Assembly: GCF_003675875.1 (NCBI RefSeq)
Contig: NZ_RCDI01000003.1
Location: forward strand, 372,001 to 436,000
Length of the DNA: 64,000 nt
From: Halostella limicola
GTDB taxonomy: Archaea > Halobacteriota > Halobacteria > Halobacteriales > Natronoarchaeaceae
Direction of reading: 5' to 3'
Part shown: piece after piece, positions 31,588-37,260 of the stretch
Position numbering within the stretch: position 1 is the first letter of the stretch
How the letters are laid out: each line of letters begins with the position of its first letter
Notes under the pieces: generated by a model
What the model was told of the DNA's origin: nothing
Seen by the model: only the letters and a program-made list of their open reading frames with translations
Database searches by the model: none
Position numbers and translations under genes: made by a program

Positions 31588-33630
31588 TCAGACGAACGGG
31601 TAGAAGAGGTCCTCGTCGCCCCGCCAGTGGACGGTACCGTCGAACGTCGGCACGAGGTTCTCGGTCTCGATCAGCTCCCGCAGTTCGGGCCCGGTCGCCG
31701 CGAACCGGGAGGGGGCGGCGCAGAACCGCGCCGGGAGGTCCCGCAGCTCCGGCCGCCAGACGAACCCCGCTTCGGGGATGTACGGGTACGCCTCCACGTC
31801 GAACAGGTTGTCGTCGATCGGTTCGACGGTCGCCGGGGTGCAGTAGAGCGTGACGTTCCGCACCAGCTGCTGGAACCCGTCGCCGACGGCTCGCAGTCCG
31901 GCGCCGTCGGCCGGATCGGACTCCCCGGCGGCGACCGCGTACCGACGTGCCTGGTCGACCGTGAACCCCCTGGCGAAGAGGCCGAGGAGCCGCTCGCGCA
32001 CCGCCGGCGCGAGCGGCCGGTCGCCGTCGAGCGCGAACCCGCCGACGCTCCCGCTTCGCACGCAGTCGAAGCCCGTCTCGACCGAGCCGGGGCCGTCGAG
32101 GAAGAACAGCCGGGCGTTCGACGCTTCGAGGCGGTCAGGCCGCAGACGGCCGTCCGGGCAGTCGAGCCCGCCCGCGCAGTCGCCGACGAAGTGGACGAAG
32201 TCGGCCCCGCGCTCGAACAGCGCGGCGAGGTCCGCCCGGGGGACCGCGTCGCGCGTCTCGACCTCGACGGAGTCGGGCCCGTGGCGCCGGAAGAGCGCCG
32301 CCGCGCCGTCGCGGACCGAGCGCCGCGACGGGTCGTTGCAGACGACGACCACCCGCCCGGTGCCGTCGCTCCGGTCGAGGTAGGCGGAGGCGTGCTCGTA
32401 CGCCGCCGGGATCGGCCGGAACCAGTCCGCCACCGGTTCCGACTCCGCGTCGTCCGCCATCCAGGCGATCGCGCTCCCGTGCGGGGCGCCGGTCGCGAGC
32501 CGGTCGGGGAGGAGGTCCGCGACCTCGCCGGCCGCGGCCGCCCCGTCCGTCCCGCGTCCCCGATCCGAGTCCGGATGGAGGATCACGGGCAGGTACCGGA
32601 GCAGGTACGGGAGCGCCGTCGCGTTCTCCGGGGTCGGCTCGACGTAGCTCACGAAGTGCCACTCGGGCAGCGCCGGGCTGATGCGGCCGAAGTCGACGTC
32701 CAGGTACGCCCGTAGCCGCTCGACGTCCGAGTAGTCGTCGCACCGCGCGGTGTCGAGGTCCACCAGGGAGAGCAGGTCGGACTGCTCCGGCGACGCGGTC
32801 GCGTTCCGGTCGTACTGCACGAGGCTGTCGAGGAGGAACACCCGCCTGAGCAGCGTCGCGGCGTCGTACCGGAACTCCGGGGGCGGCGCGAGCGAGTGTC
32901 TGAAGTCCGTTCCCGGCGAGTACAGTAGCGGGTCTCCCGCTCCGACCTCGACCCGCGCGCCGAGGTAGTACGCGAGCGGCGCGACGTGAAACAGCGCGTC
33001 CATCCTGTCAGGGACCCGGACGACGAGGTCCGTCTCCGGCACGAAGTCCGTGACGGCCGCGGGGACGTCGATCTCGTCGCCGAAGGCGATCCGCGGCGGG
33101 TGCCGCCTGAACTCGTCCATGGCTCGCGCGGAGTCGGTCCGCTGCAGCGCGGCGGAGAAGTTCGTGACGGCGGCGGCGAGTCCCCGCGTCGTCGGCGGGA
33201 CGGTGATCGTCTGCCGCGGGACCCGAATGAAGCTCAGGAACCCGATCGAGACGCGCTCCGGCTGCTCGAACGACAGCGAGACCTCGTCGTCGTCCGTCGT
33301 CGTGACCGTCGCTGGACCCTCGAACCGCACCGTGATACGGATCGGCGGCTCCACGCGAAGCTGGTAGTTCCCCCGGGACAGCTGGTGCTCACCCTTCGAA
33401 TCGAGGACTGTCCGGTTCGCCAGCGTCCCGTCGGCGTCGACCTCGGCCAGCTGCGGGTACTTCGACGGCAACGTCAGTTCGGTCACCCGCCCTCCGACTG
33501 CCGCGTCGATCTGCTGCGGGAACGAGTGCGTCCGCCCGACTTCGTCCCAGCCGACGGTCTCTACCTCCGCGGCGTTGTTCCGGCGGTCGACCGCGCGGAC
33601 GGTCGCGTCGACCACCTCCACCTCGATCAC
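31588..33630 (-). CDS. CHAT-like protein with lost catalytic residues
   Basis: 680 residues. The N-terminal beta-rich half (1-200) is unlike known enzymes; the middle is helical and the C-terminal part (about 390-610) follows the CHAT (caspase HetF-associated with TPR) pattern: GADFVHFVGDCAGGLDCPDGR, then ARLFFLDGPGSVETG, then SGSVGGFAL and a helix bundle. In active CHAT proteases the first motif is HxxGH and the second ends in a Cys; here they are H480-F-V-G-D484 and D-G-P514-G-S, so both catalytic residues are replaced. GTG start 33630 overlaps the kinase stop (GTGA), so the two proteins are co-translated. Confidence 0.75.
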   Translation of the reverse strand: MIEVEVVDATVRAVDRRNNAAEVETVGWDEVGRTHSFPQQIDAAVGGRVTELTLPSKYPQLAEVDADGTLANRTVLDSKGEHQLSRGNYQLRVEPPIRITVRFEGPATVTTTDDDEVSLSFEQPERVSIGFLSFIRVPRQTITVPPTTRGLAAAVTNFSAALQRTDSARAMDEFRRHPPRIAFGDEIDVPAAVTDFVPETDLVVRVPDRMDALFHVAPLAYYLGARVEVGAGDPLLYSPGTDFRHSLAPPPEFRYDAATLLRRVFLLDSLVQYDRNATASPEQSDLLSLVDLDTARCDDYSDVERLRAYLDVDFGRISPALPEWHFVSYVEPTPENATALPYLLRYLPVILHPDSDRGRGTDGAAAAGEVADLLPDRLATGAPHGSAIAWMADDAESEPVADWFRPIPAAYEHASAYLDRSDGTGRVVVVCNDPSRRSVRDGAAALFRRHGPDSVEVETRDAVPRADLAALFERGADFVHFVGDCAGGLDCPDGRLRPDRLEASNARLFFLDGPGSVETGFDCVRSGSVGGFALDGDRPLAPAVRERLLGLFARGFTVDQARRYAVAAGESDPADGAGLRAVGDGFQQLVRNVTLYCTPATVEPIDDNLFDVEAYPYIPEAGFVWRPELRDLPARFCAAPSRFAATGPELRELIETENLVPTFDGTVHWRGDEDLFYPFV

Positions 33631-35876
33631 GTCGCCTTACCTCCGTTCGCGTCCGTGTACACCTCGAACCGCGCGCCGCCGTCCGCGGCGTCCGCCACTT
33701 CGACCGTCCAGCCGTGGCCGGCGGCGATCTCGGAGACGATGGCGAGGCCGAAGCCGGTTCCGCCCCGGTCTTTCGCCGTCGAGACGCCCATCTCCGTCAC
33801 CTCGTCTTTCATGTCGTCGGGGACGCCCGGGCCGTCGTCGGCGACGTAGAACCCGTCCTCGAACGCGCCGACGCGAACCGACACGTCGTCGCCTCCGTGG
33901 AACGCGGCGTTCCGGAACAGGTTCTCGAACAGCTGCTGGAGCCGCTCGGCGTCGCCCTCGACCGTCGGCAGGTCCCCGATCGACACCGTCGCGTCCGCGG
34001 TGTCGGCGCTCTCCCACGACGCCTCGGCGACGGCGGCGAGGTCCACCGGGTCGACCTCGCCGACGGCCTCGCCCTCCCGGGCGAGCGTGAGGATGTCCTC
34101 TATCATGCGGCTCATCCGCTCGTGCTCCTCCTCGACCACCGCCAGGTGCTCGTCGTTTCCGGTCTCGCGCGCCAGTTCGAGGTAGCCGCTCGCGCTCGAC
34201 AGCGGGTTCCGGAGGTCGTGGCTGACGACCGACGCGAACGCGTCGAGCCGGTCGTTCTGACGCTCCAGTTCGCGCTCCCGCTCGACGAGCTCGCCGATGT
34301 CGGTGTAGATGATGTACCCGCGCTGCCTGTCGTCGCCGCTGGAGACGGGGACGCTCCGGAGGAGAAACGGCGCGGGGCCGTCGACAGTCAGCCGCTCGAC
34401 CTCCCTGTCGAGGTGCTCCCCGTTCCGGATGGACGCGTACAGCTCCCGTGCCTCGTCCCGGTCGTCGTTCCGAACGAGCAGGTCCAGCGCGGACTCGCCG
34501 ACGGCGTCGTCCGGTTCGTACCCGAACAGACGGACGAACGCGGAGTTGACGCGCTCGATCCGCGGCTCCCCGTCGGCGAAGACGTACTGGATCGCCGCGT
34601 CGGGGATGTTCTGAAACAGCGCGGCGAAGCGGTCGCGCTCCCGCGTGACCGTCTGCTCGTACCGCACGCGCTCGACGGCGTGGGTGACGTGGGCGACGAG
34701 GAGTTCGGCGAGCTCCCGGTCGGACTCCGTGTACGCGCCGGGCTCGTCGGACACGGCCTGAAACACTCCGATATCGCCCACGGGGATCGACAGCGCCGAC
34801 CGGAACCGCGAGTCGGTCGGCGCCGCCTCCGACGCCTTCCGGACGTCCTCGACGAGGACGGTTCGGCCCTCGCGGTACGTCCGGCCGATGACGCCCTCGT
34901 CGACGCCGAGTCGCTCGTTCAGCGACTGCGGCCGGTCGGCGGTCGCCGCGAGCGGGACGAACTCCCCGTCGACGGGCTCCGCGACGACGCAGGCGTCGAA
35001 CTCGAGGACGTTGTTGGCGCTCTCGATCGCGATCTCGTAGATCTCTGACTCGCGGTCCGTCGCCTCGAGCACCGAGGCGACGTCGTGCAGGCGCTCGACC
35101 TTCTCGTCGATGCCGCCGTCCACCTCGCCCAGCAGGGCCGCGCCGTCGCCCGCGTCGAACACCGTCGCGCTCCCCGCCGGACGATACCGGACCTTACCGT
35201 ACTCGTCCGTTCCCTCGGCCGGCATCGTCTCTACCTCGCAGAGTCGGTTCTCGACCGCGAGCGTCGTCGAGCGGCGTTCGCCCCCGAGCGCGGCCTCGTA
35301 GAGCGCCTGCAGGTGTGCGGTTACGGCGGGGTCGAACGGGGCGTCGTCCACGCGCGAGCCCTCCAGGTCCGCCGGGTCGACGCCCCCGTCTTCCCAGCCG
35401 CCGACGACCGCCGCGTGCCGGCGATCGGCGTCGAACAGCGCGACTATCGCCGGGCGGTCGCCGACCGCGAAGTCGAGCGCCGACTGGTACGCCGACCGCA
35501 TCTCGGTCTCCGCGGCGTCGACGGCGGCGTCGACCCGTCGCGCCAGCAGCGGCGCCCAGTCGTCCACTGCGCCCCGCATCTGGACGCAGTCCGTCGCCCC
35601 CGCCTCCAGCACAGCGGCCGGTGTCGGCCCGTCGTCAGCCGTGAGCGCGACGAGCGGGACACCGGGTAGGGCCGCGCTCGCGGCGGCGATGTCGTCGAGC
35701 GGCCGCTCTCCAGTGGTGTGAGAGACGACGCAGTCGATCGAGGGTTCCCGCGGTCCCGCCGCGGTCGTCGCGTCCCGCTCGACGACGACCGTCGCCCCGT
35801 CCTGGGACAGCGCGTCGGCTATCCGCGACGCGTCCCCGTCGGCGAAGAGCAAAATCGCCCTGTCCTGTGAACTCAT
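33627..35876 (-). CDS. Soluble GAF-PAS sensor histidine kinase
   Basis: 749 residues, no transmembrane helices. An N-terminal receiver-like domain (1-115) has no obvious phospho-acceptor Asp (IDCVVSH where VLLD is usual). A divergent region is followed by GAF (about 275-420), PAS (about 432-535, FQNIPDAAIQYVFADGE), HisKA with H553 in VVSHDLRNPLSS, and HATPase with N box ENLFRNAAFHGG, G1 DDGPGVP and G2 GGTGFGLAIV. Senses a cytoplasmic signal and phosphorylates an unknown partner; no response regulator is nearby. ATG 35876 gives the natural MSSQDRAILLF start. Coupled to the CHAT-like gene. Confidence 0.92.
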   Translation of the reverse strand: MSSQDRAILLFADGDASRIADALSQDGATVVVERDATTAAGPREPSIDCVVSHTTGERPLDDIAAASAALPGVPLVALTADDGPTPAAVLEAGATDCVQMRGAVDDWAPLLARRVDAAVDAAETEMRSAYQSALDFAVGDRPAIVALFDADRRHAAVVGGWEDGGVDPADLEGSRVDDAPFDPAVTAHLQALYEAALGGERRSTTLAVENRLCEVETMPAEGTDEYGKVRYRPAGSATVFDAGDGAALLGEVDGGIDEKVERLHDVASVLEATDRESEIYEIAIESANNVLEFDACVVAEPVDGEFVPLAATADRPQSLNERLGVDEGVIGRTYREGRTVLVEDVRKASEAAPTDSRFRSALSIPVGDIGVFQAVSDEPGAYTESDRELAELLVAHVTHAVERVRYEQTVTRERDRFAALFQNIPDAAIQYVFADGEPRIERVNSAFVRLFGYEPDDAVGESALDLLVRNDDRDEARELYASIRNGEHLDREVERLTVDGPAPFLLRSVPVSSGDDRQRGYIIYTDIGELVERERELERQNDRLDAFASVVSHDLRNPLSSASGYLELARETGNDEHLAVVEEEHERMSRMIEDILTLAREGEAVGEVDPVDLAAVAEASWESADTADATVSIGDLPTVEGDAERLQQLFENLFRNAAFHGGDDVSVRVGAFEDGFYVADDGPGVPDDMKDEVTEMGVSTAKDRGGTGFGLAIVSEIAAGHGWTVEVADAADGGARFEVYTDANGGKAT

Positions 35877-35953: not shown

Positions 35954-36757
35954 CTAGAACAGCCCGACGACGAACCCGAGTCCCATCGTCACGAGGACGG
36001 CGGCGGAGAACACTGGGAGGTACGGCGCGTACCGCTCGACTCGCTCCTCGTAGCGCTGGTACCCCGCAATCAGGAGCATCGTCAGCCCGACGATGCCGGC
36101 GACGACGGTGAGAGCGTACGCGCTCATCAGTTCGAGGCAGTGGTTCGACCCCGCACAGAGCGCGATGATCTCGAACTCCTCTTCGTGGGCGAACCCGAGG
36201 ACGAAGGCGAACCACGCGATGCCGAAGAGGCCCCGGTCGGCGGCCTCGCCGGGGTCGTCGTGCGCGTGAGCGTGTCCGCCGAGGAACGGCACGAAGCCCT
36301 TCAGGCGGGAACCCAGTCCCCCCTCGTCTCGGTCGTGTGAGTGGCCGTGGTCGCGTGAGTGGCTGTGCTCGTGCCCGTCGCCGCGTTCGTGACCGCCGTG
36401 GCCCCCGTGCGTATGGCCGTGGAAGTACTCGCGGACGCCGAGCGCGACGAGCAGGACGCCGGCCACGAGGCTGACCGGTCCGCCGATCTGGAACTCCCCC
36501 AGCACCGTGATCGGCTCGTCGACCCGCGCGAGGTCGAAGTAGTCCTTCGCGTAGAAGAAGGCCGCCACCATCGCGATGCTGCTGACGAGGTGGCCGATGC
36601 CGAGGATGAGACTCGCCGCGAACCCGTACGCCCACTTGTTCGTCCGATCGAGCGCGTACGACGCGGCGACCGGCCAGCCGTGCCCCGGTTCCACGCCGTG
36701 TACCGCGCCGAGCGCGATCGCGCCGAGGAGCAGTCCGAGGGCTTCGTCGTGCAACAT
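35954..36757 (-). CDS. RcnA/NiCoT-like nickel-cobalt transporter
   Basis: 267 residues with about six transmembrane helices. The first helix holds HGVEPGHGWP, matching the HxxxPGH signature of RcnA-type Ni/Co exporters. A cytoplasmic loop (about residues 110-150) is extremely His-rich (HGHTHGGHGGHE and further HSHSRDHGHSHD repeats) and should bind metal. A second site, FAHEEEFEI, lies in a later helix. Divergent from nikR with a 107-bp gap, which supports nickel as a substrate. Export is more likely than uptake from the signature, but direction is not certain. Confidence 0.85.
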   Translation of the reverse strand: MLHDEALGLLLGAIALGAVHGVEPGHGWPVAASYALDRTNKWAYGFAASLILGIGHLVSSIAMVAAFFYAKDYFDLARVDEPITVLGEFQIGGPVSLVAGVLLVALGVREYFHGHTHGGHGGHERGDGHEHSHSRDHGHSHDRDEGGLGSRLKGFVPFLGGHAHAHDDPGEAADRGLFGIAWFAFVLGFAHEEEFEIIALCAGSNHCLELMSAYALTVVAGIVGLTMLLIAGYQRYEERVERYAPYLPVFSAAVLVTMGLGFVVGLF

Positions 36758-36864
36758 TGCGGTACCGGAGCCTCCGACGACGGGCTGTATAACGGTTGTT
36801 ACTACCGAATCGGGGAGATCGTCATACGCGAGGTATCTTGTGGCGGCGCGTCGACCTTCTGCGT

Positions 36865-37260
36865 ATGCGAACGAGCTTTAGCATCCCCGACGACGTCGTC
36901 GCGGCGTTCGATCGGGTGTGGCGAGAGCAGGGGATCGATAACCGCTCTCGGGCGGTCAGGGAAGCGATGCTGGAGTACGTCGAGGCCCACTCCCGCCTCG
37001 AAGCGACGACCGGCGAGGTCGTCGCCCTCGTCGCGTTCGACTACCGCCACCACGAGGTGATACGGGAACTCCACGCCGTCCAGCACGAGTACCAGGACGT
37101 CATTCTCAACACGAGCCACACCCATCAGGGCGAGTGGTGCCTCGAATCGCTGTTCTGTCGCGGGTCGGCGGAACGGGTCCGCGAGCTGACCTACCGGCTC
37201 CGCGACTTCGACGGCGTGCGCCGGGTGAAGGTGATGGTGATCCGGGACGGCGTCGGCTAG
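36865..37260 (+). CDS. nikR: Nickel-responsive transcriptional regulator NikR
   Basis: 131 residues: N-terminal ribbon-helix-helix DNA-binding domain (MRTSFSIPDDVVAAFDRVW, 1-45) and C-terminal ACT-like nickel-binding domain. Candidate square-planar ligands are H74, H85, H87 and C92 (NTSHTHQGEWCLE); the His-to-Cys spacing is one residue shorter than in Escherichia coli NikR. Start ATG 36865 places the first ribbon strand at residue 3; a longer frame from 36796 lacks conserved features. Divergent from the Ni/Co transporter and probably controls it. No clear NikR operator of the bacterial type was found between them. Confidence 0.92.
   Translation: MRTSFSIPDDVVAAFDRVWREQGIDNRSRAVREAMLEYVEAHSRLEATTGEVVALVAFDYRHHEVIRELHAVQHEYQDVILNTSHTHQGEWCLESLFCRGSAERVRELTYRLRDFDGVRRVKVMVIRDGVG

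Follow-up and report, generated by a model that had tools for sequence, protein, structure and literature searches.

The window, a 64,000-nucleotide stretch of the Halostella limicola genome, encodes a 680-aa protein with a CHAT/caspase-like fold that appears to be catalytically dead, and this protein (hereafter pseudo-CHAT) is probably dedicated to the neighbouring GAF-PAS histidine kinase as a partner without proteolytic function. Both genes lie on the reverse strand, the kinase gene (33627..35876, 749 aa, ATG start; open reading frame and domain scan) upstream of the pseudo-CHAT gene (31588..33630, GTG start; open reading frame and AF2 model). As the first-pass annotation had reported, the GTG falls inside the kinase stop, four nucleotides being shared (GTGA, 33627..33630, reverse strand). 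A Shine-Dalgarno-like GGAGGT is located 8 nt before the GTG, within the last kinase codons (33639..33644, reverse strand), which supports this start for the 680-aa protein.

A Pfam scan of the kinase revealed a variable N-terminal region followed by GAF-PAS-HisKA-HATPase_c, and its boxes are intact: the H-box HDLRNP with the phospho-acceptor His, the N box NLFRNA, and the G1 and G2 boxes DDGPG and GTGFGL. The N-terminal region of the kinase (35500-35876 of the window, reverse strand) looks like a degenerate receiver domain, and in one relative (L043) the kinase gives a weak Response_reg match (E 1e-4). The pair is flanked by a gene for a Gly_transporter-domain membrane protein and by a NicO-like transporter gene with a divergent nikR, the latter two (35954-37260) being an ordinary nickel-uptake pair; no receiver gene was seen among these flanking genes. 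Promoter and terminator scans, which were of bacterial type, found nothing at the locus. The PADLOC models matched neither the pair nor the intact paralogue, and membership of the pair in an anti-phage defence system has no support.

The AlphaFold model of the 680-aa protein (mean pLDDT 86.6, pTM 0.88; input alignment of 55 sequences) and fold comparisons delimited, all on the reverse strand, an N-terminal beta-sandwich (residues 1-145, 33196..33630), a middle alpha/beta region (residues 146-320, 32671..33195) and a clan CD, CHAT-like unit made of two subdomains (residues 324-595, 31846..32661). Fold matches for the N-terminal half were borderline only, none with Z of 8 or more, the beta-sandwich bearing a weak likeness to the YidC periplasmic and galactose-mutarotase-like folds (Z 7.8). 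The best match for residues 324-625 of the predicted model was gingipain RgpB (Z 19.5, rmsd 3.2, 249 aligned residues); SAVED-CHAT 8tl0 matched with Z 15.9 over 169 residues, separases with Z 12-16, Csx29/TPR-CHAT with about 11-13 and caspases with about 10. The structure prediction that the first-pass annotation had suggested as a check thus supports a clan CD, CHAT/caspase-like fold for these modelled residues, not an unrelated one. The annotation had traced the CHAT layout to residues 470-610; the type of fold stands, but the unit is larger than that, about 324-595, with its two subdomains.

By sequence, the 680-aa protein had no matches in Pfam, NCBIfam or the PDB. The Response_reg (receiver) and p20 profiles did not match it in the Pfam scan, and the CHAT profile (PF12770) matched none of the 20 kinase-linked members scanned, the 680-aa protein included. 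Pfam CHAT was matched by 10 of the 55 members of the alignment, dyad-bearing homologues (best E 3e-5), and many of the homologues overall keep the CHAT signature HYIGHC and FFLNACGS. The CHAT assignment of the 680-aa protein is supported by these Pfam CHAT matches of its dyad-bearing homologues and by the fold.

The catalytic positions were compared between 45 kinase-linked members and 89 intact relatives, all of the latter full-length and dyad-bearing. The catalytic-His position is occupied in the window protein by Asp484 (codon 32179..32181, reverse strand; motif HFVGD) and the catalytic-Cys position by Pro514 (codon 32089..32091, reverse strand; motif FFLDGPGS), and these columns hold H and C in 89/89 intact relatives, bearing out the two substitutions read by the annotation. 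Among the kinase-linked members the Cys column never holds C, and column 484 can hold D, E, N, R, S, T or H, with D/E in 31 of the 45. Two residues before the lost Cys lies Asp512 (codon 32095..32097, reverse strand), which is class-specific: the column is N in all 89 intact relatives and D/E in 44/45 kinase-linked members (Glu in three, with Pro in the remaining one). Asp584 (codon 31879..31881, reverse strand) is kept in both classes (44/45 and 89/89), and D493, G494 and G583 are likewise retained. Class-specific conserved positions of the kinase-linked members also include G27, D29, R48, P124, W625 and YP677-678. Judged from these alignments, the replacement of Asn512 by Asp/Glu indicates a dead site that is retooled and not merely eroded. 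His480 and Cys491 were considered as a substitute dyad, which is unlikely, both being equally conserved in the dyad-bearing relatives.

Two readings bear directly on the acidic residues of the emptied site. A caspase-fold domain may have turned into a receiver-like output, in which Asp512, on the old nucleophile strand, would take the phosphate of the kinase, with Asp/Glu484 and Asp584 proposed as the metal ligands that would assist it. Such a role, which we consider quite unlikely, would account for Asp512 being the only residue of the old active site whose conservation is strongly class-specific, and for its place in the AF2 model, where it is the C-terminal residue of strand 506-512 and where strands 476-482 and 579-583 are followed by residues 484 and 584; the hhhLDxP motif of the pseudo-CHATs recalls receiver motifs, their sheet also resembles flavodoxin, and no separate receiver gene was seen in the neighbourhoods of the pairs, which is a weak test. 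However, the pseudo-CHATs have no conserved Lys of receiver type, column 512 admits Glu and Pro, residue 484 is acidic in just 31 of 45 members, and the flavodoxin score (Z about 7.8) is one that unrelated folds also reach. It is less probable still that the protein is an enzyme whose acidic pocket holds a divalent metal or a nucleotide for the hydrolysis of another substrate: the coordinated acidic changes at 484 and 512 and the retention of D493, G494, G583 and D584 would suit a new chemistry, but residue 484 is more variable than a normal catalytic position.

Homologues of the 680-aa protein were present in 365 of the 392 genomes of the order. A search of genome contigs with the 680-aa protein alone found no relative; the relatives were found via a mixed six-sequence alignment, a 24-sequence alignment being too divergent as query, and gene calls outside the window were made in this analysis. 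In a survey of 133 long homologues, for which dyad-bearing relatives were sampled by motif and similarity and not exhaustively, 33 had a linked histidine kinase gene on the same strand, 30 of them adjoining it and three lying in tandem arrays. All 33 lacked the dyad, whereas the 100 unlinked homologues carried it in 97 cases and lacked it in three; no dyad-bearing homologue (0/97) had a linked kinase. One kinase-linked member (L165) has kept the catalytic His and lost the Cys. All 12 held-out members, obtained in a later profile search, were kinase-adjacent and without the dyad. The kinase-linked members formed a single clade (SH-aLRT 99), so the counts of linkage and dyad loss are not independent evidence, the state being inherited within it. 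Repeated dyad losses, one for each kinase pairing, were rejected on the same tree. A degenerate group from Halostella genomes (L052:6558-8591, L176:5019-7022 and L177:4888-6912), with neither dyad nor kinase, is placed elsewhere on the tree.

The gene pair sought by the annotation in other haloarchaea was thus recovered, with homologues that lack the His/Cys dyad, in at least 33 genomes from Natrialbaceae, Haloarchaeobius and Halostella, nearly all of them from one family and two from Halostella. Members include Halopiger djelfimassiliensis, Natronococcus pandeyae, Natrononativus amylolyticus, Halovivax asiaticus and Haloarchaeobius iranensis. In Natrononativus amylolyticus the kinase is WP_255171723.1 and the pseudo-CHAT is WP_255171722.1; the pair of one relative is annotated at NCBI as a 'hypothetical protein' beside an 'ATP-binding protein'.

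Seven pairs of relatives gave dN/dS values of 0.15-0.35, indicating purifying selection on the kinase-linked members, and in the same analysis the substitution rates of the CHAT part were broadly like those of the rest of the protein. Together with the long open frames of other members and the class-specific conservation of residues that include G27, D29, R48, D512 and YP677-678, these values make it very improbable that the pseudo-CHAT is a decaying gene carried along by the kinase, as the lost dyad, the patchy distribution and a true remnant in a related Halostella might otherwise suggest. The reading of the kinase-linked protein as a pseudo-protease, its loss of activity being judged from residues, is well supported by the compared sequences and the model: the dyad is gone in all kinase-linked homologues examined, the fold is CHAT/caspase-like and selection is purifying. 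A CHAT homologue that fails on its catalytic residues is accordingly not filed here as a CHAT protease.

The link with the kinase was examined in 31 pairs, in which the kinase lies upstream in 25 and downstream in six, with intergenic gaps of -4 to 183 nt, one second tandem copy excepted. The translational coupling proposed by the annotation is plausible in the window and in eight other pairs with an equal 4-nt overlap (9/31), but it is not a general rule, because a gap separates the two genes in most of the 31 pairs and the order is reversed in six. All of the partner kinases scanned have the GAF-PAS-HisKA-HATPase_c core, and the paired kinases cluster separately from their paralogues in the window genome. 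Distances among the kinases follow those among the pseudo-CHATs closely (r = 0.89, permutation maximum 0.29; 0.79 without close pairs), although co-inheritance in one operon could yield the linkage and part of the co-divergence. Tandem pseudo-CHAT copies accompany one kinase at two loci, two copies at L039 and three at L053 (L053:7601-14540). At L036 and L038, the gene directly upstream of the pair encodes another histidine kinase, a longer one of about 1095 aa.

The remnant mentioned above, from a Halostella related to that of the window (L172:5926-6262, genome G078), is a broken pseudo-CHAT, 67% identical over residues 432-533, which has no kinase alongside and adjoins a truncated Gly_transporter-domain gene; it is consistent with joint loss of the pair. 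In Halostella relatives, the two genes that flank the window pair are not kept together. The recurrent linkage in both gene orders, the co-divergence and the kinase-less remnant genome all support the partnership with the kinase that the annotation had put forward, and within it the pseudo-CHAT may serve as signal-binding partner or effector.

Pseudo-caspases that act as decoys are well established in animals, and the pseudo-CHAT could similarly bind substrates or partners of an intact paralogue, as a decoy or inhibitor under kinase control. The intact form in question is the one linked to glyA, tbsP and ycaO, and the window genome carries two dyad-bearing paralogues (L050 and L051); nevertheless, the pseudo-CHAT and the intact paralogue share only about a third identity, and the linkage is to kinases and not to the protease locus, so that we regard a decoy as unlikely. 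Dyad-bearing homologues are encoded at L050:7152-9215 and about 90 other loci, and those loci whose neighbours were inspected adjoin glyA (SHMT), tbsP and ycaO.

Under the favoured interpretation, that of a dedicated non-proteolytic partner, the ancestor would have been an intact CHAT protease resembling the widespread form linked to glyA, tbsP and ycaO. Its duplicate would have become linked to a sensor kinase and would have kept the fold for interaction or binding. The kinase would sense a cue via its GAF and PAS domains, and the co-produced pseudo-CHAT subunit would most likely act as output or modulator by contact, its emptied acidic pocket serving binding or regulation and not cleavage. 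The pseudo-CHAT would probably lie on the output side of the kinase, since a single kinase can be accompanied by several copies and the neighbourhood shows no receiver gene, the latter being a weak test.

The pair was compared with known systems. The pseudo-CHAT resembles the CHAT proteases (PF12770; Csx29/TPR-CHAT and SAVED-CHAT) in its fold (about residues 324-595) and in the layout of HxxG and hydrophobic strand, but it differs from them in the replacement of the catalytic His and Cys, in lacking a profile match, in showing no TPR or SAVED part and in having a histidine kinase as gene partner. The dyad-bearing haloarchaeal CHAT homologues are homologous to it over the full length, at about 30-35% identity, but keep HxxGH and NACGS, have no linked kinase and occur in most genomes of the order. 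Gingipains and separases, the best fold matches (Z 19.5 and about 15), have the same two-subdomain caspase-like unit, but are active proteases with no detectable sequence relation to the pseudo-CHAT. Histidine kinase/response-regulator systems are alike in the canonical kinase core and in a partner gene usually located directly downstream, but the pseudo-CHAT partner is not recognisable as a response regulator.

The nearest known kind are the bacterial pseudo-orthocaspases, a conserved group of caspase homologues that likewise lack the His-Cys dyad, but which have a p20 domain and Tyr/Ser at the sites (PMC6426788), whereas the pseudo-CHAT has Asp/Pro and no p20 match. The survey that described them reported none in Archaea, and its text does not mention histidine kinases (PMC6426788). 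In the literature searched, which left out most subscription journals, no description of a pseudo-CHAT/kinase pair was found.

The kinase-linked proteins thus represent a conserved archaeal clade with the CHAT fold, apparently dead and associated with a single kind of histidine kinase, in a domain of life from which pseudo-caspases were reported absent (PMC6426788), and D512 offers a clear single-residue test of the reuse of a protease fold in signalling. Caspase-like activity has been measured in haloarchaea (Haloferax), reportedly without homologous genes to explain it (PMC3615174); since most genomes of the order encode dyad-bearing CHAT homologues, these are candidates for this haloarchaeal caspase-like activity.
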